Positions 4,261-49,155 of a stretch of 52,324 nucleotides of DNA are shown here, in pieces. Every line of letters begins with the position of its first letter. The first letter of the stretch is position 1. The DNA is from Alphaproteobacteria bacterium. GTDB lineage: Bacteria; Pseudomonadota; Alphaproteobacteria; GCA-2731375. The stretch covers positions 1-52,324 of the forward strand of contig VGEV01000007.1 in assembly GCA_016869175.1 (NCBI GenBank), read 5' to 3'. The notes beneath the pieces are model-generated. The model was not told where the DNA came from, ran no database searches, and saw only the letters and a list, made by a program, of their open reading frames with translations. A program made the translations under genes and the position numbers.

Positions 4261-5593
4261 CCGGCGGGATGGCACGCAGGAGGGCTGGAAACCGTACCGC
4301 CAGGCCCAGCCCGCGCACCCCCAGGAAGAGCGCTAGCGCCAGCCACAGGCCGTGGTTGCCCAGCCAATCCGGCAAGCCGTAGAGCGCGGCCAGGAAGATT
4401 GCCAGCGCCAACGCCATCGTGTTGCGCATGTCGGCACTGCGCGACGCGCCGGCGAACACCCCGTCAAACAGGTAGGCCCAGACGCCAAGCGGCGGAAGCA
4501 CGACAACCCACGGCAGGTACACCGCCGCCGGCTCACGCACCTCCGCAACGCTGGTGAACAATTGCACCGCCAGCATGCCGCCCAGCCCCAGCAGCAGGGA
4601 AAAGCCGCAGGCGGTCCCCAGACCCCATAGCGCCGCCAGCCGTACCGCCCGGCCCGCCGCCGCGCGGTCGCGCTGGCCGATGGCCGCGCCGACCAAGGCT
4701 TCCGCCGCCGAGGCGAAACCGTCGAGCGCGTAGGTCGCGATATGCAGAAGCTGCATCAGTATGGCGTTGGCCGCCAGGGTGGCATCGCCGGCCCGCGCTC
4801 CCTCCGCGGTGAACAGGGAAAAAGCGACCACAAGGCAAAGCGTGCGCAGGAAGATATCGAAGTTGACCCGGGAGGTGCGCAACAGCCGATCCGCCCTGAG
4901 CACTGCCCCCCAGCTCAGCCTGCCTGGCAGTGCCGCCACGGCCGGACGACAAAGATGCAGCCCATAGGCAAGGCCGAGATACTCCGCCAGCACGGTGCCG
5001 AGCGCCGCCCCCGGCACCTGCCAGCCGAAGCCCAGCACGAACAGCAGCGTCAGCCCGGCGTTGCTGCCGTTGGTGGCAAGCTGCATCAGCAGCACCGCGC
5101 GCGTGCGATGCATGCCGATCAGCCAGCCGTTCAACGCGAAATGCCCCAACGCGGCCGGCGCGGAGAGCGCGCGGATCTGGAAGTAGAGCGCCGCTTGCGT
5201 CTCGACCTCGGCGCTAGCATCGATCGCCCACAGGCCCAGCCAAAGGATTGGCTGGGACAACAGCAGAATTGCCAGGCCAATGCCGAGGGCCAGCAGCAGC
5301 GCCCGGGCCAGGCTCGCCCGCGTTTCCTCGCCATCCTGCGCGCCGAACGCCTGGGCAGCGAAGCCGCTGGTGCCGAAGCGCAGGAAGTTGCTGCTCCAAT
5401 AGAGGAAATTGAAGATCGTGGCACCAACCGCGACGCCGCCCAGATAGTGCGCCCCCGGCAGATGCCCGATCACGGCGGTGTCCACCGCGCCCAGCAGCGG
5501 CACGGTGGCATTCGAGACGATGATCGGCAGGGCCAACTGCCACACCCGGGCGTGGCTGATACGCGGACTAGCGCCGGCTGGGTCGTGTGACAT
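4250..5593 (-). CDS. MATE-family efflux transporter (DinF-like)
   Basis: The 447-residue membrane protein has about 12 hydrophobic segments and the duplicated MATE architecture. The start reads RVWQLALPIIVSNATVPLLG, followed by GAVDTAVIGHLPGAHYLGGV, which is typical of the DinF branch. MATE proteins export drugs or metabolites by H+ or Na+ antiport across the inner membrane. ATG at 5593 is chosen because the motif begins about 15 residues later. The gene is convergent with the uxaA-like gene and divergent from the next hydrolase. The substrate cannot be told from sequence. Confidence 0.9.
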   Translation of the reverse strand: MSHDPAGASPRISHARVWQLALPIIVSNATVPLLGAVDTAVIGHLPGAHYLGGVAVGATIFNFLYWSSNFLRFGTSGFAAQAFGAQDGEETRASLARALLLALGIGLAILLLSQPILWLGLWAIDASAEVETQAALYFQIRALSAPAALGHFALNGWLIGMHRTRAVLLMQLATNGSNAGLTLLFVLGFGWQVPGAALGTVLAEYLGLAYGLHLCRPAVAALPGRLSWGAVLRADRLLRTSRVNFDIFLRTLCLVVAFSLFTAEGARAGDATLAANAILMQLLHIATYALDGFASAAEALVGAAIGQRDRAAAGRAVRLAALWGLGTACGFSLLLGLGGMLAVQLFTSVAEVREPAAVYLPWVVVLPPLGVWAYLFDGVFAGASRSADMRNTMALALAIFLAALYGLPDWLGNHGLWLALALFLGVRGLGLAVRFPALLRAIPPATS

Positions 5594-37961: not shown

Positions 37962-39179
37962 ATGACCCAGGCGCTTGCTGGCATCCGTCCGCTCGATGGC
38001 ATTCGCGTCCTGGATGCCGCGACCTTCATCGCCGCGCCGTTCTGCGGCACGCTGCTGGCCGAGTTCGGGGCCGAGGTGATCAAGGTCGAACTGCCGAACG
38101 TTGGCGACCCGCTGCGCAAGTTCGGCACGGCCAGCGAGATCGGCCTGACCTTTCCCTGGCTGTCGGAAGCGCGCAACAAGAAGTCGGTGACGTTGGACCT
38201 GCGCAAGCCGGAAGGTGCCGAACTCTTCAAGCGTCTGGTCGAGAAGGCCGACGCCGTGTGCGAGAACTTCCAGACCGGCACGCTGGAAGGCTGGGGCCTT
38301 GGCTACGAGGCGCTGAAGGCGGTCAATCCTGGCTTGGTCATGTTGCGCGTCACCGGCTATGGCCAGACCGGGCCGTTCGCCGGCCGGCCCGGTTTCGCGC
38401 GCATCGGCCAGGCCTTTGGCGGGTTGTCGGTCTTGGCCGGCTATCCCGACCGCGCGCCGGTAACGCCCGGCTCGTCCACCATCGCCGATTATATGAGCGG
38501 CCTGTTCGGCGCCTATGGCGTGCTGCTGGCCTTGCGTGCGCGCGAACGCACCGGCGAAGGGCAGGTGATCGACATCGGCCTCTACGAGTCGGTGTTCCGC
38601 ATCCTGGACGAACTGGTGCCGAATTATCAGCGCACCGGCTATGTGCGCCAGCGCATGGGGCCCGGCACCATCAACGTCGTGCCGCACAGCCACTATCCCA
38701 CCAAGGACGGTCACTGGGTGGCGATCGCCTGCACCACCGACAAGATCTTCGAGCGGCTGGCGAATTTGATGGGCCGGCCCGACCTGGCGGGAGCCGGTCC
38801 CTGGGGCAACTACCGCGAGCGCGACCGCGAGCGCGACAAGGTGGACGCGTTCGTGGGCGAATGGTCGACCCGGTTCGACTTGCGCGAGTTGCTGGAGATG
38901 TGCGATCGGGCGCAAGTACCCTGCGGGCCGCTGCATACCGTCGATACGCTGTTCCAGGACCCGCAATTCGCCGCGCGCGAGAATATCGCCCTGGTCCCCG
39001 ATGCGCGGCTGACCGGCCCGCTCGCGGTGCCGAACGTGGTGCCCAAGCTGACCGACACGCCGGGCCGGATCGATCATCTGGGACCGCAATTGGGCGAGCA
39101 TAACCGCGAGATCTACGGCGGCCTGCTCGGCTTGACCGACCCCCAGCTCGCCCGCCTGGCCGAACTTGGCGTCATCTAG
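37962..39179 (+). CDS. Class III (CaiB/BaiF) CoA-transferase
   Basis: The 405-residue protein is a family III CoA-transferase: GIRVLDAATFIAAPFCGTLLAEFGAEVIKVE, SVTLDLRKPEG, and a catalytic Asp in the TIADYMSG region. It moves CoA between acyl groups, like formyl-CoA or succinyl-CoA transferases. AAGGA lies ahead of ATG 37962. It closes the ghrA, atzG-like, amidase group, suggesting that an acid made there becomes a CoA ester. The donor and acceptor are unknown. Confidence 0.93.
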   Translation: MTQALAGIRPLDGIRVLDAATFIAAPFCGTLLAEFGAEVIKVELPNVGDPLRKFGTASEIGLTFPWLSEARNKKSVTLDLRKPEGAELFKRLVEKADAVCENFQTGTLEGWGLGYEALKAVNPGLVMLRVTGYGQTGPFAGRPGFARIGQAFGGLSVLAGYPDRAPVTPGSSTIADYMSGLFGAYGVLLALRARERTGEGQVIDIGLYESVFRILDELVPNYQRTGYVRQRMGPGTINVVPHSHYPTKDGHWVAIACTTDKIFERLANLMGRPDLAGAGPWGNYRERDRERDKVDAFVGEWSTRFDLRELLEMCDRAQVPCGPLHTVDTLFQDPQFAARENIALVPDARLTGPLAVPNVVPKLTDTPGRIDHLGPQLGEHNREIYGGLLGLTDPQLARLAELGVI

Positions 39180-39253: not shown

Positions 39254-39580
39254 TTACTTCAGCACGATGTCGACCGCGTCGAGATGCGCCCGGGCGATGC
39301 GGCGCACGTCGGCGACAAGCCGTTCCCGCCGCCGCAAGTCGGCGCAGAGATTGTCGACGATGTCGGTGGCCAGGGAATAGCCAAAACTGCCGGCCAGTCC
39401 CTTGATGTTGTGTGCCACCGAGAACAGCGCCTTGTGCCCGGCCCCCTCGTCCTCGGCCTGACCGAGAACCGCGCGGGCCTGTGCCAGGTAGTCGCCCATC
39501 CAACCGCCGAAGCTCTTCGCCAGCTTCGCCACCTCGGCATCGGCACGCTCGAGGGACAGTCCCTGTTCCGCCAACGTCAT
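39254..39580 (-). CDS. Orphan Hpt-domain phosphotransfer protein
   Basis: The 108-residue protein is a single Hpt four-helix domain. The phosphoacceptor His57 lies in SVAHNIKGLAGSFGY, a strong match to the HxxKG consensus. It would relay phosphate between a hybrid histidine kinase and a response regulator in the cytoplasm. No kinase or receiver gene is near, so its partners are elsewhere. ATG at 39580 is favoured over the track start nine codons upstream. Confidence 0.87.
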   Translation of the reverse strand: MTLAEQGLSLERADAEVAKLAKSFGGWMGDYLAQARAVLGQAEDEGAGHKALFSVAHNIKGLAGSFGYSLATDIVDNLCADLRRRERLVADVRRIARAHLDAVDIVLK

Positions 39581-39731
39581 TGCAAGGCCCTCACCACGGC
39601 ATGACAACCGACGGTAGCAAGGCGAAGATTAAGGCGGCTTCAGCCAAGGCGGTTAACGCGGCCTTTCGCCGCCCGGCCGCGCCCACCATAATCGCCGTTC
39701 GGCAAGGCGATTGGCGGAAGGAAACGCAGGC

Positions 39732-41684
39732 ATGAATCAAGGCATCGTCTGGCGGCCGGATGCGGAAACGGTCGGGCGCAGCAACTTGCGGCGCTTCATG
39801 GACCGACACGGCATCGCCGACTACGAGGCCTTGGTGAAGCGCGCCGACGCCGATCCGGAATGGTTCTGGGACGCCACCATCCGCTTCCTGGATATCCGCT
39901 TCGTCACGCCCTATGAGAAGGTGCGCGACCTGTCCAAGGGGGCACCCTGGGCCGAATGGTGCGTCGGCGGCACGACCAACCTCACGCTCAGCACGCTCGA
40001 CAAGCATCGCGGCACGCCGACCGAAGCCAAGGTCGCCATCCGCTGGGAGGGCGAGACCGGCACGGTCCGGCAGTGGACCTACGCCGAGCTCGATCGCGAG
40101 ACCTGCCGGCTGGCCGCCGGCCTGAAGGGCCTGGGCATCAGGCCGGGCGATGCGATCGGCATCTTCATGCCGATGCTGCCGGAAACGGTGGCGGCGTTCT
40201 ATGCGGCGGCGCGGGTCGGCGCCATCACCGTGCCGTTGTTCAGCGGCTTCGGGCCGGAGGCGATCATCGCCCGCCTGACCGACGCCGAGGCCAAACTGGC
40301 GATCACTGTCGATGCCTCCCGCCGGCGCGGGCAGGTGGTCCCGATGAAGGCCACGATGGACCAAGTGGCCGAGCGGGTGCCGACGCTGAAGCACGTCCTC
40401 GTGCTGAACACCATGGGCGAGCCAGTCGCCTTGCGCCCAGGCCGCGATCTCGATTGGCACGAACTCGCGGCCCGCCAGCCGGACCGGATCGAAGCGGAAG
40501 CGGTGCCTTCCGAGCACCCGCTGCTGCTGGTCTACACCTCCGGCACCACCGGCCGGCCCAAGGGCACGGTGCTGACCCATTGCGGCCTGCCCACCAAGAT
40601 CTCGGCCGATTTCCAACTCAATCTCGACGTCAGACCGGACGACCGCTTCCTGTGGATCACCGATTTCGGCTGGGTGGTGGGACCGGCCCTGTTCGTCTCG
40701 GCGACCGTGGCGGGCGCCAGCATGGTGCTGGTGGAAGGCGGCCCAGACTTCCCCGACACCGGGCGCATGTGGCGGCTGGTGCAGGAGCACAAGGCGACCT
40801 ATCTGGGCGTGGCGCCAACCTCGGTGCGCACGCTGATGCGCTACGGCGCCGAAACGGTCGCCAAGTATGACCTGTCGTCGCTGCGCGGCACCGCCTCGAC
40901 CGGCGAGCCGTGGACCGAGGAAGCCTGGCTCTGGTTCTTCGAGCATGTCTGTCGGCGCCGGGTGCCCATCATCAACTGGTCGGGTGGCACCGAGATCGGC
41001 GGCGGCATCATCTGCGGCACCATGATCCATCCCTTGAAGCCTTGTTCCTTCGCCGGGCCGATGCCGGCCATGGGTGCCGATATCGTCGACGAACAGGGCG
41101 CGAGCGTCGGCCCCAACCAGGTGGGCGAACTGGTGCTGCGCACGCCCTCGATCGGGCTTGCGCGCGGCCTCTGGAAGGACCCGGAGCGATATATCGAGAC
41201 CTACTGGAGCATGTTCCCCGGCCTGTGGCGGCATGGCGACTGGGCCAGCCGTGATGGCGACGGCATGTGGTACATCCACGGCCGGTCCGACGACACGCTC
41301 AAGATTTCCGGCAAGCGTACCGGCCCGGCCGAAATCGAGGGCATTGTCATGGCCACCGGCAAGGTCTCGGAGGCAGCCGCCATCGGCATTCCCGATGCCA
41401 TCAAGGGCGAGGCGGTGGCCTGCGTCTGCGTGCCGGCGCCCGGCATCGCCGCCGACGAGACGCTGCGTCAGGAACTGGCGGAGGCCGTCACCCGGGGCTT
41501 CGGCCGTTCGTTCCGGCCGCAACGCATCCTGTTCGTCGCCGACCTGCCGAAGACGCGCAGCCTGAAGATCATGCGCCGGGTGGTGAAGGCGCTGGTGCTG
41601 GGCAAGCCGCCGGGCGATCTGTCGGCACTCTCAAACCCGGAAGCGCTCGACGAAGTGAAGCGCGCCGCCGGGCAGACCGACTGA
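39732..41684 (+). CDS. Acyl-CoA synthetase, AMP-forming (acetyl-CoA synthetase-like)
   Basis: The 650-residue enzyme has an ACAS N-terminal region (WFWDATIRFLDIRF), the P-loop YTSGTTGRPKGTVLTH (about residue 270), WSGGTEIGGG, GDWASRDGDGMWYIHGRSDD (about 500) and a C-terminal PKTRSLKIMRR with the catalytic Lys near 613. It makes an acyl-CoA using ATP and AMP. The usual Gly before that Lys is Leu here. GGAAGGAAA precedes ATG 39732. It lies just upstream of a convergent catabolic cluster and could supply its CoA ester, which is inference. Confidence 0.92.
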   Translation: MNQGIVWRPDAETVGRSNLRRFMDRHGIADYEALVKRADADPEWFWDATIRFLDIRFVTPYEKVRDLSKGAPWAEWCVGGTTNLTLSTLDKHRGTPTEAKVAIRWEGETGTVRQWTYAELDRETCRLAAGLKGLGIRPGDAIGIFMPMLPETVAAFYAAARVGAITVPLFSGFGPEAIIARLTDAEAKLAITVDASRRRGQVVPMKATMDQVAERVPTLKHVLVLNTMGEPVALRPGRDLDWHELAARQPDRIEAEAVPSEHPLLLVYTSGTTGRPKGTVLTHCGLPTKISADFQLNLDVRPDDRFLWITDFGWVVGPALFVSATVAGASMVLVEGGPDFPDTGRMWRLVQEHKATYLGVAPTSVRTLMRYGAETVAKYDLSSLRGTASTGEPWTEEAWLWFFEHVCRRRVPIINWSGGTEIGGGIICGTMIHPLKPCSFAGPMPAMGADIVDEQGASVGPNQVGELVLRTPSIGLARGLWKDPERYIETYWSMFPGLWRHGDWASRDGDGMWYIHGRSDDTLKISGKRTGPAEIEGIVMATGKVSEAAAIGIPDAIKGEAVACVCVPAPGIAADETLRQELAEAVTRGFGRSFRPQRILFVADLPKTRSLKIMRRVVKALVLGKPPGDLSALSNPEALDEVKRAAGQTD

Positions 41685-41687
41685 CGG

Positions 41688-42485
41688 TCACTCCACCACG
41701 ACACCGGCGCGGCCGAGACCGTCGATCTCGGTCGCCATGCGGTCGCCGGGCTTCAGCCACTTGGTGGCAACGATCGAGCCCATCAGCACGATGTCGCCGG
41801 CGTGCAGCCGGCGGCCGCGATGGTTGAGGCTGTTGGCGAGCCAGGCCAGCGCCTCGAACGGGTGGCCCATCACGTCGGCACCCCGCCCCTCGCCCACGAC
41901 CTGGCCGTTGATCAGCATGCGGCCCTTGAGGTTGGCGAGATCGATGGCATGCCAATCGCGCACCGGCTGGCCGACGACGCAGCCGAAATTGAACGAGTTG
42001 TCAGCGATCAGGACGGGCGCCGCCAGCGAGCCATAGACGCAATTACGATCATCGACGATCTCGATGGCCGGCAGCAGAGCCGCCACGTGATCGGCGATGC
42101 TGGCCCGGCTGTGCGGCTTGGCCCCGGCCGGCACATCGCGCGCAATCTCGACCGCGATCTCGCTCTCGACGCCCAGATGCACGTAGTCGGCGGCGCGAAG
42201 CCGCGCCTCGCCCCGATGCACCCGGTCAGAGAAGATGCCACCCTCGCAAGGGTGATCGACACCCACCATCTTCTGCATCACCGACGTGGTCAGCGCGACC
42301 TTCCAGCCGGCCAGTTTTCGGCCGCCCTCGGCCTGGTAGAGCGCCTGCAAGCGATCCTGCACCGCGTAAGCTTGGGCCAGATCCGCCACCGCCAGATCGG
42401 GCGGCAAGGCGCCGATGGCGCGCTTGGCCTTGTGGTCGGCATAGAGCTGCTTGGCCGTGCGTTCGGCGCGGGCGGCGTCGTACAT
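41688..42485 (-). CDS. 2-keto-4-pentenoate hydratase-like (FAH superfamily)
   Basis: The 265-residue protein resembles MhpD-type hydratases and related decarboxylases of meta-cleavage paths: LAGWKVALTTSVMQKMVGVD, GVESEIAVEIARDVPAG with the metal-binding Glu residues, and FNFGCVVGQPV. It hydrates a 2-hydroxypenta-2,4-dienoate-type acid using Mg2+. It starts 4 bp after the NTF2-like gene and is probably cotranscribed with it. It ends 3 bp from the acyl-CoA synthetase stop on the other strand. Confidence 0.88.
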   Translation of the reverse strand: MYDAARAERTAKQLYADHKAKRAIGALPPDLAVADLAQAYAVQDRLQALYQAEGGRKLAGWKVALTTSVMQKMVGVDHPCEGGIFSDRVHRGEARLRAADYVHLGVESEIAVEIARDVPAGAKPHSRASIADHVAALLPAIEIVDDRNCVYGSLAAPVLIADNSFNFGCVVGQPVRDWHAIDLANLKGRMLINGQVVGEGRGADVMGHPFEALAWLANSLNHRGRRLHAGDIVLMGSIVATKWLKPGDRMATEIDGLGRAGVVVE

Positions 42486-42489
42486 CGCT

Positions 42490-42957
42490 TCATTCCTCCA
42501 ACAAGCGGCGGATGTCGGCATCGGCCTGGGTCGCCGCGGCCCAGCGCAGGAACAGCTTGCCCATGACTTCGGACGGGCTGCCGAGCTGCGTCAGCATCAC
42601 GCCGCTTTCGAAGGCGTCGTCATAATCCGCGATCAGGCCGGCGCGCAGGCGGAAGCGGCCGATGCCGCGCAAGGCGACACGCCGGCCGGCCGCGTGCTTG
42701 GTTCTGGCGGTGTATGCGTAAAGGAAGCTGGCATAGCCGGTATCGCCCGCCAGGGCCGGATCGTGAAAGCGCCAGTGGAAACGCTCGCCGTCGGCATGGA
42801 AGCGGCGGAGCAGCGCCTCGATGGCCGGCCGGCCGTCATTCCGGCCATAGAAGCGGTCGTGATAGACGCCATCTTCCGTGAACAGCCGCGCGAAACCGGC
42901 CGCGTCGCCCGCTTCGGCACAGTCCGAGAACGCCTCAAGGACTTGCTGAAATTCCAT
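42490..42957 (-). CDS. NTF2/SnoaL-like protein
   Basis: The 155-residue protein has the SnoaL-like cone fold pattern: an N-terminal helix, FTEDGVYHDRFYGRNDGRPAIEAL, FHWRFHDPAL and a final strand with VALRGIGRFRLRAGLIADYDDAFESG. Members include small hydratases, isomerases and dehydratases of aromatic or polyketide compounds. ATG at 42957 is used since the track start lacks homology upstream. It precedes the 2-keto-4-pentenoate hydratase-like gene by 4 bp. Function beyond the fold is not known. Confidence 0.8.
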   Translation of the reverse strand: MEFQQVLEAFSDCAEAGDAAGFARLFTEDGVYHDRFYGRNDGRPAIEALLRRFHADGERFHWRFHDPALAGDTGYASFLYAYTARTKHAAGRRVALRGIGRFRLRAGLIADYDDAFESGVMLTQLGSPSEVMGKLFLRWAAATQADADIRRLLEE

Positions 42958-43011: not shown

Positions 43012-43614
43012 CTACTGCCGGGGTTGGCTGAGGAAACCGTGCAGGAACAGATCGGCGGCCAGTTCCGCCAGGCGTTCCGGTGCCACCGCGCCCTTGGGAT
43101 CGTACCAGACATAGGTCCAGTTGATCAGGCCGTAGAGCATCATGGCATAGGGCTTGCGCAAGTTGGCATGCGGCGCCAGGCCCGGATTGAGGTCGAGCAG
43201 CAGGCCGACGACCAGATCGACCAGTTCGCGTTCGAGTTCGCGGATTTCCTCGGCCTGTTCGGGCGCCAGGTGATCGAGCTCGTTCATCAGCACCAGGTGC
43301 TTGTGCGGAGCCCGGGCATAGACCTCCAGGTTGGCCGCGATGAAGGCGCGGAAGCGGTGCATCGGCTGCTCGTTTACCTTGAGCGCGGCCTTGCTGACCC
43401 GGCGCAATTCGGCGATATGCGCCTTCAGCAGAGCGTAGAGGATGGCCTCTTTCGACGCGTAGTAGTGATAGATCCAAGCCTTCGAGAAGGCGCAGGCGCG
43501 GGCGACCTCGGCGATCGAGGTACGGGCGAAGCCCTGGCGGGCGAACAATTCCGCCGCCCGTTCCAGGATAAGCTGCTGGTTCTCCGCATAGTGGTCGGAA
43601 CGCGTGCGGGCCAT
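43012..43614 (-). CDS. TetR-family transcription regulator
   Basis: The 200-residue repressor has the N-terminal HTH in FARQGFARTSIAEVARACAFSKAWIYHYYASKEAI (residues about 24-55), with a variable ligand domain behind it. Its ATG overlaps the crotonase stop by one base (TGATG), so it is made with the catabolic genes it probably controls. A perfect TetR-type palindrome lies ahead of the operon, suggesting autoregulation and induction by a CoA ester, as in PaaR/FadR-type systems. The ligand is unknown. Confidence 0.92.
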   Translation of the reverse strand: MARTRSDHYAENQQLILERAAELFARQGFARTSIAEVARACAFSKAWIYHYYASKEAILYALLKAHIAELRRVSKAALKVNEQPMHRFRAFIAANLEVYARAPHKHLVLMNELDHLAPEQAEEIRELERELVDLVVGLLLDLNPGLAPHANLRKPYAMMLYGLINWTYVWYDPKGAVAPERLAELAADLFLHGFLSQPRQ

Positions 43615-44384
43615 CAGCGACCCAGGAATTTCGGCCGGCGCTTTTCCTGGAAGGCCTTGAAGCCTTCGACACCGTCGGCCGTGCGCAGGGCTTCCGCCTG
43701 GCCCTCGGCTTCGAGTTCCAACGCGCGCGCATAGTTCGCGTTGGCCAGCAGGATGCGTTTGGAGATCTTGAAGGCCATTGTCGGGCCGTCGGCGATCTGC
43801 CGGGCCATGCGGCGGGCCTCGGCCATCAGGTCGGCGGCGCCCACCGCGCGGTTGACCAGGCCCAGGGCGGCAGCCTCGCGGCCGGAGATCAGGCGGCCGG
43901 TATAGATCAGTTCGGCGGCGCGGTGCGGCCCGATGCGCTCGGCCATCGCGTAATGCCCGCCGCAATCGAGGATGCAGCCGATGTTGCGGAACGGGCTGCC
44001 GAGCAGCGCGTCGTCGGCGACCAGCGCGATGTCGCAGGCCATGGCCAGGCCGAAGCCGATGCCAAGCGCCGGGCCCTCGACCGCCGCCACGGTCGGCAAC
44101 GGCAGGATCCGCAGGCGCTGCACCACGGGGTTGATCACCCGCTTCAAGATGCCCTCATTGTTGTCGGTCGCCGGATCGGCGCCGGCGATGTCCCGGCCAG
44201 CGCTGAACGATCCACCCTGGCCATGCAGCAGCAGACAACGCGCCGCGGACCGCTCGATCTCTGCCAGATGGCGGTCGAGCAGCGCCATCTCTTCCGGTCT
44301 CAGACTGTTCTTCTTGTCCGGACGGTTGAGGCGGATTTCGGCGACCGCGCCATCGAATGCGAGATCGACCGTGGCCTCGCTCAT
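43614..44384 (-). CDS. Crotonase-fold protein, PaaG-like isomerase candidate
   Basis: The 256-residue protein has crotonase motifs GGSFSAGRDI and EGPALGIGFGLAMACD. Both Glu residues of classical enoyl-CoA hydratase are missing (Gly112 and Phe132 at those sites). Asp140 in CILDCGG lines up with the active-site Asp of PaaG-type isomerases. It is thus more likely an isomerase acting on an acyl-CoA than a hydratase. It overlaps the MaoC gene by 4 bp and the TetR gene by 1 bp. Confidence 0.88.
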   Translation of the reverse strand: MSEATVDLAFDGAVAEIRLNRPDKKNSLRPEEMALLDRHLAEIERSAARCLLLHGQGGSFSAGRDIAGADPATDNNEGILKRVINPVVQRLRILPLPTVAAVEGPALGIGFGLAMACDIALVADDALLGSPFRNIGCILDCGGHYAMAERIGPHRAAELIYTGRLISGREAAALGLVNRAVGAADLMAEARRMARQIADGPTMAFKISKRILLANANYARALELEAEGQAEALRTADGVEGFKAFQEKRRPKFLGR

Positions 44385-44836
44385 GCCACGGCCGCCTTGC
44401 GCCGACGCGCCTGCAGACATTTCAGTTCGCTCGACATGACCAAGCGGCCGTTCTGGTTGAGCGCGTTCCATTGCAGCACCACCAGGCCGGAATGGGCGTC
44501 GCGATCCTCCTTTGCCGCGACCGTCGCCTGCAGGCGGATCGTGTCGCCGATGAAGACGGGCGCGACGAAGCGGAGCTTGTCGGTGCCGTAATTGGCGACG
44601 ATCGCCTCGCCATCCGCCGGCACGCCCAGTCCGGTGGCGAAGGCATGCACCAGCAGGCCGGGCGCGATGCGTTGGCCGAAGCGGGTCTTGGCAGCGTAAT
44701 GCGCGTCGGTGTGCAGCATGAACATGTCGCCGGTCAGCGTGCACCAGTTGACGATGTCGCCTTCGGTGATGGTGCGGCCGCGGCTCGTCATCGTCTCGCC
44801 GACGACGATGTCGTCGTACCACTTGGCCAGGATCAT
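44381..44836 (-). CDS. MaoC-like hot-dog dehydratase/hydratase
   Basis: The 151-residue protein is a single hot-dog domain with ITEGDIVNWCTLTGDMFMLHTD, giving the catalytic Asp37 and His42. Such domains hydrate enoyl-CoA or, in PaaZ, open oxepin-CoA. It starts 11 bp after the diiron gene stop and overlaps the crotonase gene by 4 bp. The set diiron, MaoC and PaaG-like is reminiscent of epoxide chemistry on CoA esters, but simple hydration is equally allowed by its sequence. Confidence 0.88.
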   Translation of the reverse strand: MILAKWYDDIVVGETMTSRGRTITEGDIVNWCTLTGDMFMLHTDAHYAAKTRFGQRIAPGLLVHAFATGLGVPADGEAIVANYGTDKLRFVAPVFIGDTIRLQATVAAKEDRDAHSGLVVLQWNALNQNGRLVMSSELKCLQARRRKAAVA

Positions 44837-44847
44837 GGCGCGCCCTC

Positions 44848-45939
44848 CTAAAAGACCGGGATAATCTCCGAAGGATCGAAGGCCACGGTCTTGCCGTCAA
44901 CGCCGATCTCCGGCAGGGCCGGAAACTCGATGCCATGAGGTTCGATCAGCCCCTTCATGCGCAAGACCGCGTTGCGCCAATTCTCCTTGCGCTCCTCGGC
45001 CGTCAGGATGCCAAGGCCGGCCGAGCGGGCCACGTCTTCCAGCAACAGATGCGAGGCATGGAATGTCGGCCCCAATTCCCAGAACTCCTTGGGCGGCAAA
45101 TAGAGGATGCCGGAGAGGAAAATGAAGCCTGCGCGGATCTGCTTGGTGATGACCGCGCGCTGCTCGTCGGTCAGCTTGGGCAGGATGTTTTCCAGGACCG
45201 TCAGGCAGATCCCCATGTGGCGGGCCTCGTCCTGGCCGACCCGGCGGAAGCATTCCTTGAACACTGGAATGCTGGTGGCCTGGTACATGCCGTGGAACAG
45301 CGTCGAGGAGGCGATCTCGCCCATCAGGAACGAGGTGAACAGGATGGGCAGCGGCCACTTGCCGATCGAGCCCTTGAAGCCCGACCAATAGCGACAGCCG
45401 TTGTGATACATCCAGCGCACATTGTTCTGCGCCAGCTTGCCGAGCGGCGTTTCGGGCACATAGTCGAGTGGCCCCTTCGGCACCAGCGCCTGGATGGCGC
45501 GTTGGCAGATCTCCTCGTGGTTCACCTCGTCGCGCACGATGGAGAAGAAGCACTTGCGCACCGGGTCTTCCTCGTGCGTCTCCCAGGTGTGGATGAAGGC
45601 GCGCGCGAACACCGCCGGACCGGAGCCGTCAAACACCGAGAGCAGCGTGAACCAGTAGGCCAGCGCGTAACGCTGATCGACCGTGAAGGCGCTGGGCTCG
45701 AGCGTGTCCCAGGGCAGCAGGTTGGGCGCCCAGCCGGGGTCGCGCGACTTGTCGTAGAGCGCCTGCAGCTTCGGCGTCTCCACGCGCCATTCCAGCGGGA
45801 AGATGTTGAGTTCCGGGAAGGGCGGCGGTTCCGCCATGCCATAGAGCAGGCTGGCGGCGTCCGGCGCGACCGCGCTGGTGCCGGGCGGCGGCGACGTCGT
45901 CTTGCCGGCAAGGCGTTCGGCGGTGGTTGGGCGGTTCAT
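44848..45939 (-). CDS. Ferritin-like diiron oxygenase candidate
   Basis: The 363-residue protein has two EX2H motifs, Glu138-x2-His141 in RDEVNHEE and Glu238-x2-His241 in QDEARH, plus Glu208 in LMGEIAS at the expected spacing of 30. The first-helix ligand is probably Asp104 or Glu120. This fits a ferritin/R2/AurF/PaaA-like diiron-carboxylate site that activates O2. It leads the operon, with a strong AGGAGGTGA ribosome-binding site, under the TetR palindrome. The reaction is unknown; hydroxylation or epoxidation is plausible. Confidence 0.8.
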   Translation of the reverse strand: MNRPTTAERLAGKTTSPPPGTSAVAPDAASLLYGMAEPPPFPELNIFPLEWRVETPKLQALYDKSRDPGWAPNLLPWDTLEPSAFTVDQRYALAYWFTLLSVFDGSGPAVFARAFIHTWETHEEDPVRKCFFSIVRDEVNHEEICQRAIQALVPKGPLDYVPETPLGKLAQNNVRWMYHNGCRYWSGFKGSIGKWPLPILFTSFLMGEIASSTLFHGMYQATSIPVFKECFRRVGQDEARHMGICLTVLENILPKLTDEQRAVITKQIRAGFIFLSGILYLPPKEFWELGPTFHASHLLLEDVARSAGLGILTAEERKENWRNAVLRMKGLIEPHGIEFPALPEIGVDGKTVAFDPSEIIPVF

Positions 45940-45983: not shown

Positions 45984-45997
45984 TGACCGGACGGTCA
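45984..45997. promoter_or_regulatory. TetR-type operator palindrome
   Basis: TGACCG-GA-CGGTCA is a perfect 6-bp-armed dyad, close to the operator TTGACCGTCCGGTCA seen for many TetR regulators. It sits 45 bp ahead of the diiron gene and 70 bp ahead of the divergent FAH gene, so one site may control both operons. The likely binder is the TetR at 43012-43614. Confidence 0.7.
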
Positions 45998-46066
45998 ATG
46001 AATTCGGGCGAAGCGCGATTCCGTGCCGGAACGGCTGCTGCCATACTGTCGCCCGGGGGAACCAGC

Positions 46067-47260
46067 ATGCCTGACATCGCTTCGATCCTGGCGGGCGGCC
46101 TGCCCGGGGGCGGCTTCGCCGGCAGTTTCGTTGGCCGTGCTTTCGTGCCGGGCGAACCTGGTGGGCCGAGCCCGGTTCTGCTGCGGGACGACGGCGTGTT
46201 CGACTTGTCGCAGCGTTACGCGACGCTGGCCGACTTGCTGGCGGCCGATGATCCGGCCCGCGCCGCTCGGACATCGCCCGGCCGGCACCTCGATTCGGTC
46301 GCCGACCTGCTGGCCAACAGCGCGCATGACCGGCGCGACGAACGGCGGGCCTATCTATTGGCGCCGGCGGACCTGCAGGCGTTGAAGGCCTGCGGCGTCA
46401 CCTTCGTGCGCAGCATGCTGGAGCGGGTGATCGAGGACCGGGCCAAGGGCGACCCTGCCGCCGCCGAAGGCATCCGCAAGGCGATCGCGGGAGAACTCGG
46501 CGCTTCGTTGCGCGAGGTCGCGCCCGGGTCGCCCGCCGCATTGCGGGTCAAGCAGCTCTTGCAGCAGCGCGGCCTGTGGTCGCCCTATCTGGAAGTCGGC
46601 ATCGGCCCGGATGCCGAGATCTTCACCAAGGCGCAGCCGATGGCTGCCGTCGGCACCGGCGCGTTGATCGGCATCCACCCGCAGTCCACCTGGAACAATC
46701 CGGAGCCCGAAGTGGTGCTGGCCATCGCCCCTGACGGCCGCATCGTCGGCGCCACGCTCGGCAACGACGTCAACCTGCGCGACGTGGAAGGCCGCAGCGC
46801 GCTGCTGCTTGGTCGCGCCAAGGACAACAACGGCTCGTGCGCCCTCGGGCCGTGGCTGCGGCTGGTGGACGGCAGCTTCGGACTTGACGACATCCGCCGG
46901 CTGGTGGTGCGCCTCAGGGTCGAAGGCGAGGATGGCTTCGTGCTGGACGGGGCGAGCCCGCTGTCGGAGATCAGCCGCGACATCGCTGACCTGGCCGGCC
47001 AGGCGCTGGGCGCGCACAACCAGTATCCCGACGGCCTCATGCTGTTCACCGGGACGATGTTCGCGCCGACCGCCGATCGCGATGCCCCGGGCCTCGGCTT
47101 CACGCACCATACGGGCGACCTGGTGGCGATCTCGGCCCCCGCGATCGGCACGCTGGTCAACCAGGTTGGCCAGACCGACCGTATACCGCCCTGGCGCTTT
47201 GGCAGCCTCGCGCTGCTGCGCAACCTGGCGGCGCGCGGTCTGCTACGGAGCGGCGCATGA
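46067..47260 (+). CDS. Fumarylacetoacetate hydrolase-family protein (AraD1-like)
   Basis: The 397-residue protein has the FAH C-terminal fold with metal ligands in NNPEPEVVLAI and GNDVNLRDVEG, and KAQPMAAVGTGALIGI typical of sugar-acid dehydratase (AraD1) relatives. It could dehydrate a 2-keto-3-deoxy acid or cleave a C-C bond. Residues 1-120 form the usual FAH N-terminal domain. GGGGGAA precedes ATG 46067; the track start 69 bp earlier overlaps the operator. It overlaps the RraA-like gene by 4 bp. Confidence 0.85.
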   Translation: MPDIASILAGGLPGGGFAGSFVGRAFVPGEPGGPSPVLLRDDGVFDLSQRYATLADLLAADDPARAARTSPGRHLDSVADLLANSAHDRRDERRAYLLAPADLQALKACGVTFVRSMLERVIEDRAKGDPAAAEGIRKAIAGELGASLREVAPGSPAALRVKQLLQQRGLWSPYLEVGIGPDAEIFTKAQPMAAVGTGALIGIHPQSTWNNPEPEVVLAIAPDGRIVGATLGNDVNLRDVEGRSALLLGRAKDNNGSCALGPWLRLVDGSFGLDDIRRLVVRLRVEGEDGFVLDGASPLSEISRDIADLAGQALGAHNQYPDGLMLFTGTMFAPTADRDAPGLGFTHHTGDLVAISAPAIGTLVNQVGQTDRIPPWRFGSLALLRNLAARGLLRSGA

Positions 47261-47976
47261 CGCCGTTGCCCGAGGGCGCGCTGGCGACGCTGCGCGAGGT
47301 CAGCACCGCCACCATCACGCTGCAACTGCTGAAGCGCGGCATCCGCAACGTGTTCATCGCCGGCGCGCGTCCGCTTAACCCGGCCGGCTGCCGCTTCGTT
47401 GCCGAAGCCTATACCTTGCGCTTCATCCCGATGCGCGAGGACCTGAGCCGGCCGGAAATCCTGGCCAACCCCGACTATCCGCCGCGCAAGGCGATCGAGG
47501 CGATCGCACCCGGCCAGGTGTTGGTCATCGACTGCCGAGGCGACCTGCGCGCGGGCGTCGCCGGCGGCATTCTGGCCACCCGCCTGGCGCGCCGTGGCTG
47601 CGCGGCCGTCGTCGCCGACGGTCCGATGCGCGATGTCGGCGAATTGCGCCACTTAGCCCTGCCGATCTTCTGCGCCGGCGGCGCGGCGCCCGCCAGCATC
47701 GCGGTGCATTTCGGCGCCGACCTGCAATGCGCCATCGGCTGTGGCGGCGCGGCCGTGTTGCCGGGCGACGTACTCGCCGGCGACGAGGACGGCGTCGTGG
47801 TGATTCCGCGCGCGCTGGCGCCAGACATCGCCCGCGATGGCGCCGAACAAGAACGCCTGGAGCGCTTCGTTCAGGAGAAAGTGGCGGGCGGCAGCGGCAT
47901 TTTCGGCGTCTATCCGCCCAACGAGGCGACCCTGGCGGAATATCGCCGCTGGCTGCAACAGAAAGGCGAAACGTGA
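47257..47976 (+). CDS. RraA-family aldolase/decarboxylase-like protein
   Basis: The 239-residue protein belongs to the RraA/HMG aldolase family: STATITLQLLKRG, GVAGGILATRLARRGCAAVV followed by DGPMRDVGEL with the metal-site Arg and Asp, and GDVLAGDEDGVVVIP. Members split 4-hydroxy-4-methyl-2-oxoglutarate-like acids or decarboxylate oxaloacetate. Placed between FAH-like and amidase genes with an ATGA overlap, it fits breakdown of a 2-oxoacid rather than RNase E control. Confidence 0.88.
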   Translation: MTPLPEGALATLREVSTATITLQLLKRGIRNVFIAGARPLNPAGCRFVAEAYTLRFIPMREDLSRPEILANPDYPPRKAIEAIAPGQVLVIDCRGDLRAGVAGGILATRLARRGCAAVVADGPMRDVGELRHLALPIFCAGGAAPASIAVHFGADLQCAIGCGGAAVLPGDVLAGDEDGVVVIPRALAPDIARDGAEQERLERFVQEKVAGGSGIFGVYPPNEATLAEYRRWLQQKGET

Positions 47977-49155
47977 ATGAACGCTGCCGTCGATCCGCTG
48001 AACGCCTATGTCGCGCATACGGCCGTGCATCTGCCGGGCAAGCCTGGCCGCGCGCTGTCGGGGCTTACTTTCGCGGTCAAAGACATCTACGACCTGGAAG
48101 GCTGCCGTACCGGCTGCGGCAATCCGCGTTGGCTGGAAACGCACGGGCCGGCCACGACAACCGCGCCGGCGCTGCAGGCCGTCCTGGATGCCGGCGCCGA
48201 GCTGACGGGCAAAGTGCATACCGACGAACTCGCCTACAGCCTGAACGGCGAGAACGCGCACTACGGCACGCCGCGCAACAGCAAGGCGCCGACGCGCATA
48301 CCGGGCGGCTCGTCCAGCGGTTCGGCCGCCGTGGTGGCGGGCGGGGCGGTCGATTTCGCGCTCGGCTCCGATACCGGCGGCTCGGTGCGGGTGCCGGCCA
48401 GCTATTGCGGCATCTTGGGCATCCGCACGACGCATGGGCGAATCGCCACGACCGGATTGATGCCGCTCGCCCCCAGCTTCGACACCGTCGGCTGGTTCGC
48501 GCGCGAGCCCGCGATCATGCGTCGCGTCGGCGGGGTGTTGCTCGCAGGCGGCGATACCGGCCCGCGCCACCGCCTGGTCTTGGCAAGCGATGCCTTCGCC
48601 ATGCTTGACGACAGCGGTCGCGACGGGCTGCGACAGGCCGTGGATCGCGTCAAGCGCCACTTCGCGTCGGCCACGGATGCGGCCGTGAGCCCGGTTGGCC
48701 TTGCCGCATGGATGCAAGCCTTTCGCCCCTTGCAAGCGCGCGAGGTCTGGGCGTGCCATGGGGCTTGGATCGAAGCGCACAAGCCGACCTTCGGACCGGG
48801 CATCGCGGAACGTTTCGCCTGGGCCCGTACCGTCAGCGAAGCCGAGGTCGCGCCGCTGCGTGGCGTGCGGCAGCAAGCGGCGGTCCGCTTGCGCGATCTG
48901 CTGGGGGGCGATGCCCTCCTCTGCTTGCCGACCGCTCCCGGCGCGGCACCGATCAAGGGAACTTCCGGTCCCGCGCTCGAGGAGTTCCGTGGCCGCGCCC
49001 TCAGTCTGACGGCCATTGCCGGCCTTTCGGGCTGCCCGCAGATCAGCCTGCCGCTGGGCGAAACCGCGGGCGCCCCGCTCGGCCTGTCGCTCCTGGGCCC
49101 GCCCGGCACCGACGAGCTGCTGTTAGCCCTGGCCGAACGCATCCTGGGCGACTAG
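47977..49155 (+). CDS. Amidase signature enzyme (second, stand-alone)
   Basis: The 392-residue amidase has Lys35 in FAVKDIYDL, cis-Ser at 112/113 in IPGGSSSGSA and nucleophile Ser136 in GSDTGGSVRVPAS. It is shorter than the AtzE-like one and has no small subunit beside it. It begins right after the RraA stop, so the three genes form one operon opposite the diiron operon. It would release an acid and ammonia or an amine from an amide. The substrate is unknown. Confidence 0.92.
   Translation: MNAAVDPLNAYVAHTAVHLPGKPGRALSGLTFAVKDIYDLEGCRTGCGNPRWLETHGPATTTAPALQAVLDAGAELTGKVHTDELAYSLNGENAHYGTPRNSKAPTRIPGGSSSGSAAVVAGGAVDFALGSDTGGSVRVPASYCGILGIRTTHGRIATTGLMPLAPSFDTVGWFAREPAIMRRVGGVLLAGGDTGPRHRLVLASDAFAMLDDSGRDGLRQAVDRVKRHFASATDAAVSPVGLAAWMQAFRPLQAREVWACHGAWIEAHKPTFGPGIAERFAWARTVSEAEVAPLRGVRQQAAVRLRDLLGGDALLCLPTAPGAAPIKGTSGPALEEFRGRALSLTAIAGLSGCPQISLPLGETAGAPLGLSLLGPPGTDELLLALAERILGD

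Follow-up and report, generated by a model that had tools for sequence, protein, structure and literature searches.

An operon proposed to open aromatic CoA esters through an epoxide, with a single-polypeptide diiron protein as the candidate epoxidase

PaaABC serves as the accepted hallmark of aerobic phenylacetate breakdown. The 52,324-nucleotide stretch analysed here (the window; contig VGEV01000007.1 of the alphaproteobacterial assembly GCA_016869175.1) carries an operon for a ferritin-like diiron protein, a MaoC protein, a crotonase-fold protein and a TetR regulator. It raises the question whether a diiron protein of another family could take the place of PaaABC in such a pathway, and on which substrate. 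We consider it probable that the operon's genes make up a compact, CoA-dependent epoxide pathway for aromatic rings, in which the diiron protein would, as a single polypeptide, epoxidise phenylacetyl-CoA or a closely related arylacetyl-CoA, with an isomerase and a hydrolase acting after it. This explanation was built on which genes are present and how they are ordered, on homology, on residue conservation and on genomic context that recurs; from these we infer the repression, the electron donor, the substrate and all the catalytic steps.

In the proposed route, a ferredoxin-FNR reductase (BenC/MmoC/PaaE-like) encoded elsewhere in the window genome would supply electrons to the diiron protein, which would activate O2 and epoxidise the ring of the CoA ester. 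The crotonase-fold protein would isomerise the epoxide to an oxepin-type ring, the MaoC protein would hydrolyse this ring to an open-chain aldehyde-CoA, and the latter would be oxidised by an aldehyde dehydrogenase, which in relatives is PaaN or the N-terminal part of PaaZ. The TetR protein would repress the operon from a palindrome in the divergent promoter region (Table 1). We propose, in other words, that an established pathway logic is served by an oxygenase that is new and unrelated.

The operon and its proteins

All four genes lie on the minus strand in the order diiron, MaoC, crotonase and TetR, with an 11-bp gap between the first two and overlaps of 4 bp and 1 bp at the next two junctions. 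The junctions agree exactly with a preliminary description of this DNA, and Pfam matches (MaoC_dehydratas, 87.6 bits; ECH_1, 159.9 bits; TetR_N, 53 bits; TetR_C_24, 77 bits) confirm the families of three of the proteins. That description had suggested that a diiron epoxidase, a PaaG-type isomerase and a PaaZ-type MaoC hydrolase might be combined here without paaBCDE, a suggestion for which the comparative evidence given below provides good support.

The diiron protein scored below the Pfam cut-offs for both AurF (24.2 bits; cut-off 29.6) and Rubrerythrin (19.9 bits; cut-off 22.8) and matched no NCBIfam model, and phmmer and profile searches of PDB sequences retrieved nothing beyond a designed helix bundle and chance matches. 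None of these searches placed it with proteins of known unrelated function, the finding that the preliminary description had regarded as counting against it. All 24 members of the diiron family examined matched the AurF profile (PF11583) at E<0.01 (best 1.3e-7; the window protein stays below the gathering score), which argues that the protein is a member of the wider ferritin-like diiron group. The alignment of the 24 homologues shows no variation at E138xxH141, E208 and E238xxH241, and the sequence and predicted models present the helical bundle, two ExxH motifs and further carboxylates by which the ferritin-like diiron superfamily is recognized. AurF, a p-aminobenzoate N-oxygenase, is the closest Pfam family and the aligned region includes the ExxH motifs; it differs in belonging to natural product pathways, whereas the context here is CoA-ester catabolism.

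The preliminary description had also noted that the protein is not an obvious PaaA. It matched neither PF05138 nor TIGR02156 (on PF05138, E. coli PaaA reaches 318 bits and PaaC 323 bits), and hhalign comparison of its profile with PaaA gave a probability of 0.5%; it is therefore not a PaaA. Homologues of paaB and paaC were found neither in the window nor adjoining the diiron homologues in the searched loci, Vitreoscilla excepted. With PaaABC(D)E the system shares its pathway position, its neighbours (PaaG, PaaI, PaaJ, PaaK, PaaZ, PaaX and a ferredoxin-FNR reductase) and the proposed ferritin-like diiron chemistry, but it has one polypeptide in place of PaaA, PaaB and PaaC, with no detectable sequence relation. 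BoxB, which acts with BoxA and BoxC, follows the same logic of a diiron epoxidase and a reductase on an aromatic CoA ester; it was set apart by the NCBIfam non-match and the phenylacetate (not benzoate) gene context alone.

The best NCBIfam model for the MaoC protein is PaaZ (model positions 523–664, 102 bits). The protein is 41% identical to the E. coli PaaZ domain and keeps the Asp-x4-His hydratase motif (TGDMFMLH; SGDHFYAH in E. coli PaaZ); stand-alone MaoC proteins found with PaaN are likewise among its closest known counterparts. Unlike PaaZ, it is not fused to an aldehyde dehydrogenase, and none adjoins it in the window. For the crotonase-fold protein the best model is PaaG. This protein is 37% identical to E. 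coli PaaG and retains the PaaG catalytic Asp (ILDCGG; IPDCGG in E. coli), while the crotonase hydratase Glu is absent (SPFRNIG where PaaF has PEITLG).

TetR homologues adjoin diiron homologues in loci L010, L011 and L066 and in Variovorax RA8. The palindrome is the sole match in the 52 kb at ≤1 mismatch (0.15 expected), and the same core lies 37–60 bp upstream of the diiron gene in L010, L011 and L029/L056. It was present in 4/4 type-I loci with a linked TetR gene compared with 0/8 without (p = 0.002), and we propose it as a candidate operator of the linked TetR. The point of comparison was the PaaR type of TetR repressor, a phenylacetyl-CoA-responsive protein with a palindromic site ahead of its genes. 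The first divergent open reading frame opens at 45998; 46068 is a likelier start, with which the palindrome falls between both operons.

Genomic context and distribution of the diiron family

When one genome was scanned for each species, 27 diiron loci were obtained, in Alphaproteobacteria, Entotheonella, Eremiobacterota and Binatota/Myxococcota-type metagenome-assembled genomes. The family is rare and patchy: the gene was present in 10 of the 385 Alphaproteobacteria of a class survey and in 20 of the 148 Eremiobacterota genomes of a phylum survey. As many of the relatives are metagenome-assembled, gene absences are provisional.

When neighbouring genes were identified with E. coli Paa proteins as probes, the distance from the diiron gene to a paa gene was no more than about 7 kb in 25 of the 41 diiron genomes (our own count). 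Three loci have extended orders without paaABCD: diiron-reductase-PaaG-PaaK-PaaJ-PaaZ (L087, genome G478), diiron-reductase-PaaG-PaaI-PaaK-PaaZ (L088, G448) and PaaZ-PaaX-reductase-diiron-TetR-PaaK-PaaJ-PaaG (L062, G237). Two others are arranged PaaI-PaaK-diiron (L057 and L061; G117 and G400), and in L060 (G385) PaaK ends about 100 bp before the diiron gene. In nine Eremiobacterota genomes, PaaN over its curated (equivalog) cut-off lies 0.05–2 kb downstream of the diiron gene, which in other Eremiobacterota is flanked by PaaZ (50–53%), PaaK-like and PaaI genes. PaaK was found ≤3 kb from the diiron gene in 6 of the 13 diiron genomes that have PaaK; the chance of this is about 1e-12 if the cases are independent and 7e-4 counting only two independent events. 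The neighbouring genes in Nonomuraea gave no Pfam match in the frames examined.

True PaaA, taken as a TIGR02156 match over the curated cut-off, occurs in 47/385 Alphaproteobacteria and in only 1 of the 41 diiron genomes (G088; 1/10 Alphaproteobacteria and 0/31 others). Full-length PaaZ was found in 18/385 Alphaproteobacteria, 17 of which have PaaA; the remaining one, G237, lacks it and carries the diiron gene within its paa cluster. Among the 51 Alphaproteobacteria with an equivalog-level PaaK, the diiron gene was present in 6 of the 13 lacking PaaA compared with 1 of the 38 having it (Fisher p = 6e-4, kinship among genomes ignored). Oceanibacterium hippocampi CECT 7691 combines a PaaK-level ligase and the diiron gene with no PaaA above the cut-off. 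As its homologues sit among phenylacetate genes where PaaABC is missing, the diiron protein probably does the job of PaaABC, and the family looks like a non-orthologous single-polypeptide counterpart of it.

The co-occurrence that the preliminary description had looked to was likewise borne out: all three genes recur in Variovorax, diiron and crotonase genes recur in five Binatota/Myxococcota-type loci (L014, L017, L022, L025 and L030, where a crotonase about 50% identical follows the diiron gene), and the diiron gene stands in paa clusters of several phyla. On the Variovorax plasmids the MaoC, crotonase and diiron proteins are 59–60%, 55–57% and 63–64% identical, respectively, to those of the window, and the MaoC and crotonase genes have the same 4-bp overlap. 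The gene set there comprises MaoC, crotonase, an OB-fold protein, thiolase, a PaaK-like ligase (283 bits; cut-off 646), diiron protein and a BenC/MmoC-like reductase, with TetR in strains RA8 and PDNC026 and with PaaN (equivalog) and a CoA transferase in VAI-C. A Fer2-FAD-NAD reductase adjoins the diiron gene in L062, L064, L065, L066, L087 and L088 as well as in Vitreoscilla and Variovorax.

In the tree, the window protein falls within a clade of 14 (support 97/98) together with the PaaK-linked L057, L060 and L061. The reductase-linked type II proteins and the Eremiobacterota group are separate from this clade. Since each group includes paa-linked members, phenylacetyl-CoA or a close relative would be the simplest substrate for the whole family. 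The wholly new substrate raised in the preliminary description is not needed, the recurring context pointing instead to phenylacetyl-CoA or a close arylacetyl-CoA.

A second paralogue, of type II (reductase-linked), is also present in the window genome (G000) and seems to have been interrupted by an insertion sequence. One part lies at 5543–6148 of contig C129 (L034), which ends in a transposase-like open reading frame inside the gene; the remainder lies at 95–568, at the start of contig C69 (L035), followed by a seemingly frameshifted ferredoxin-FNR reductase.

Some diiron genomes have paaABC-free paa clusters apart from the diiron gene: paaF-G-I-K in G012, a relative of the window genome (L101), paaG-I-K with PaaN and PaaY in G018 (L100), and paaG-H-I-J-K in G115 (L103).

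Substrate and alternative roles of the diiron protein

Several observations weigh against an arylacetyl-CoA epoxidase that replaces PaaABC. Seven Alphaproteobacteria with PaaK (G158, G220, G231, G315, G323, G392 and G403) have neither PaaA nor the diiron gene; the diiron protein is therefore one solution and not the sole one, and those genomes may hold further solutions or further uses of PaaK. Both true PaaA and the diiron gene are present in G088, canonical PaaABCDE and the diiron gene share one cluster on pVF1 of Vitreoscilla filiformis, and at least one Variovorax strain, PAMC26660, which is not among the plasmid-bearing strains found here, has canonical PaaABCDE (PMC9115942). In view of these three cases the diiron protein does not replace PaaABC in every host, and in such hosts it may act on a different substrate. 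In the window genome, PaaK, PaaN, fused PaaZ and PaaA were not detected. Phenylacetyl-CoA can arise by beta-oxidation or from phenylpyruvate, and could be supplied there in either way. No reductase was found within the window, and in its genome such reductases were found only on contigs C69 and C242. The crotonase-fold protein scores 175 bits on the PaaG model, half of the equivalog cut-off of 345 (TIGR02280). Judged from the motif spacing of R2, the remaining diiron ligand would be D104 or E120, both invariant, and the assignment is uncertain. Finally, the two AlphaFold2 models are of moderate confidence (pLDDT 75.9 and 78.8), and their best fold matches, R2lox and ribonucleotide reductase R2, reach a TM-score of only about 0.5 at 11–19% identity and have no known paa link. 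The structural comparison suggested in the preliminary description thus gave R2-like oxidases as the nearest folds, PaaA being compared by profile and found unrelated.

The same chemistry on another substrate is plausible, without being what we expect: the window and Variovorax form would act not on phenylacetyl-CoA but on a different arylacetyl-CoA, such as one derived from arylpyruvates via indolepyruvate ferredoxin oxidoreductase. The Variovorax diiron clusters hold a branched-chain-type ABC transporter and a glycolate-oxidase-like FAD-linked oxidase, and L105 (18966–21059) and L106 end in an Lrp regulator and indolepyruvate ferredoxin oxidoreductase with the FAD-linked oxidase; this gene content suggests that arylpyruvates or aryl-lactates feed the pathway there as the source of the CoA ester. 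In addition, the Variovorax ligase is only PaaK-like, the window genome lacks PaaK and the window crotonase is not a PaaG equivalog. The close type-I relatives of the window protein (L057, L060 and L061), however, adjoin true PaaK or PaaI. Only tentatively do we suggest the combination in which a new single-polypeptide diiron family epoxidises arylacetyl-CoA and its window/Variovorax branch opens a ring other than that of phenylacetyl-CoA, which would make a new ring-opening route.

It is improbable that the diiron protein plays an accessory part (for instance in epoxide deoxygenation or detoxification, or in an oxygen-sparing role) instead of being the epoxidase of the pathway. Its coexistence with PaaABCDE in the Vitreoscilla cluster and with PaaA in G088 would fit such a role, but the complete paa operons of G237, G448 and G478 and the Eremiobacterota clusters occur with no PaaA over the cut-off genome-wide, and a dedicated ferredoxin-reductase accompanies the diiron gene in many loci. 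An AurF-like N-oxygenase or R2lox-like oxidase unrelated to ring opening, standing by chance beside lipid-type MaoC and crotonase genes, is very improbable and strongly disfavoured: the nearest Pfam family is AurF (sub-threshold), the nearest fold is R2lox and MaoC domains are frequent in the window genome (15 matches), but the PaaK proximity described above and the repeated linkage to PaaN, PaaZ, PaaI and PaaX speak against chance.

We found no report in the open-access literature of this diiron family as a phenylacetyl-CoA epoxidase or as an alternative to PaaABC. A 2026 survey of 6,536 genomes proposed PaaA and PaaC as markers, and the context filter that it applied last retained those ligases that lay together with PaaABCDE (PMC13186573). 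If the epoxidase reading is true, surveys based on PaaA and PaaC overlook organisms with the pathway in Eremiobacterota, Alphaproteobacteria and other groups. The epoxidation of aromatic CoA esters would then have a far simpler catalyst, and diiron chemistry would have arrived at this reaction in a second protein family without sequence relation to the first. Genomes that hold a complete operon but no PaaA allow a direct test.

Neighbouring genes and other candidate oxygenases

Table 1. Features of the operon and its surroundings in the window
Feature	Position	Strand	Basis
Diiron oxygenase candidate, R2/AurF-like ferritin fold, 363 aa; proposed arylacetyl-CoA epoxidase	44848..45939	-	homologues in paa clusters
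Stand-alone MaoC protein, PaaZ C-terminal-like, 151 aa; proposed oxepin-CoA-type hydrolase	44381..44836	-	NCBIfam PaaZ, Asp/His motif
Crotonase-fold protein, PaaG-type, 256 aa; proposed epoxide isomerase	43614..44384	-	NCBIfam PaaG, PaaG Asp
TetR-family regulator (TetR_C_24), 200 aa	43012..43614	-	Pfam
SnoaL/NTF2-like protein, probable fifth operon gene	42490..42957	-	54-bp gap after TetR
FAA-hydrolase family, 2-keto-4-pentenoate hydratase-like (MhpD-like), probable sixth gene	41688..42485	-	4-bp gap to SnoaL-like gene
Acetate/acetoacetate-CoA ligase-like AMP-forming synthetase, convergent; operon link unsupported	39711..41684	+	NCBIfam group, without PaaK similarity
CaiB/BaiF-type CoA transferase	37992..39176	+	35% to CoA transferase of Variovorax diiron cluster
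Perfect 14-bp palindrome TGACCGGACGGTCA, proposed operator of linked TetR, divergent promoter region	45984..45997	.	window scan

As the SnoaL-like and MhpD-like genes continue on the same strand after short gaps, the operon may comprise six genes in all; conservation of the SnoaL-like gene was not found in related loci. The AMP-forming synthetase, which the preliminary description had noted next to the operon, found no support as a feeding ligase: its gene lies on the opposite strand and is convergent, and it belongs to the acetate/acetoacetate-CoA ligase group and not to PaaK. The CoA transferase is possibly, if weakly, related in function to the Variovorax cluster, given its identity to the transferase encoded there. 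Nothing similar to PaaA-E, to PaaK or to the reductases that occur in related clusters was found within the window.

PaaA-like proteins of about 70–101 bits in G000, G017, G018, G019 and G037 were weighed as candidates for the missing epoxidase and rejected. They look like part of another pathway, being far below true PaaA and, in G018, lying beside a reductase, a short-chain dehydrogenase/reductase (SDR) and a gentisate-dioxygenase-like gene (assigned by eye). Those at L097 (G000, contig C242) and L098 (G018, contig C6), of 235–244 aa and about 86–101 bits on PF05138, stand in a reductase-SDR-PaaA-like cluster and are possibly a further uncharacterised aromatic CoA oxygenase. A lone PaaA-like protein at L103 (G115, contig C93, 3265–4041; 258 aa, 24% identical to PaaA), encoded directly upstream of paaG-H-I-J-K without paaBCDE, is possibly a further alternative epoxidase.

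In several PaaA-less Alphaproteobacteria (L099–L103), an FAD monooxygenase of 530–560 aa is encoded beside or near paaK, mostly with a DUF2783-type protein of 65–71 aa. This pair, beside paaK in L100–L103, was rejected as a rival oxygenase since it is MhaAB-like, and MhaAB hydroxylates free 3-hydroxyphenylacetate (PMC3053370).

Two further regions of the window were assigned by eye. Between the CoA transferase and the synthetase, a lone 117-aa protein encoded at 39254–39607 (minus strand) resembles a histidine phosphotransfer (HPt) domain. At 45998–49155 (plus strand), divergent FAA-hydrolase-family, RraA-like and amidase-like genes have a promoter region in common with the diiron operon.

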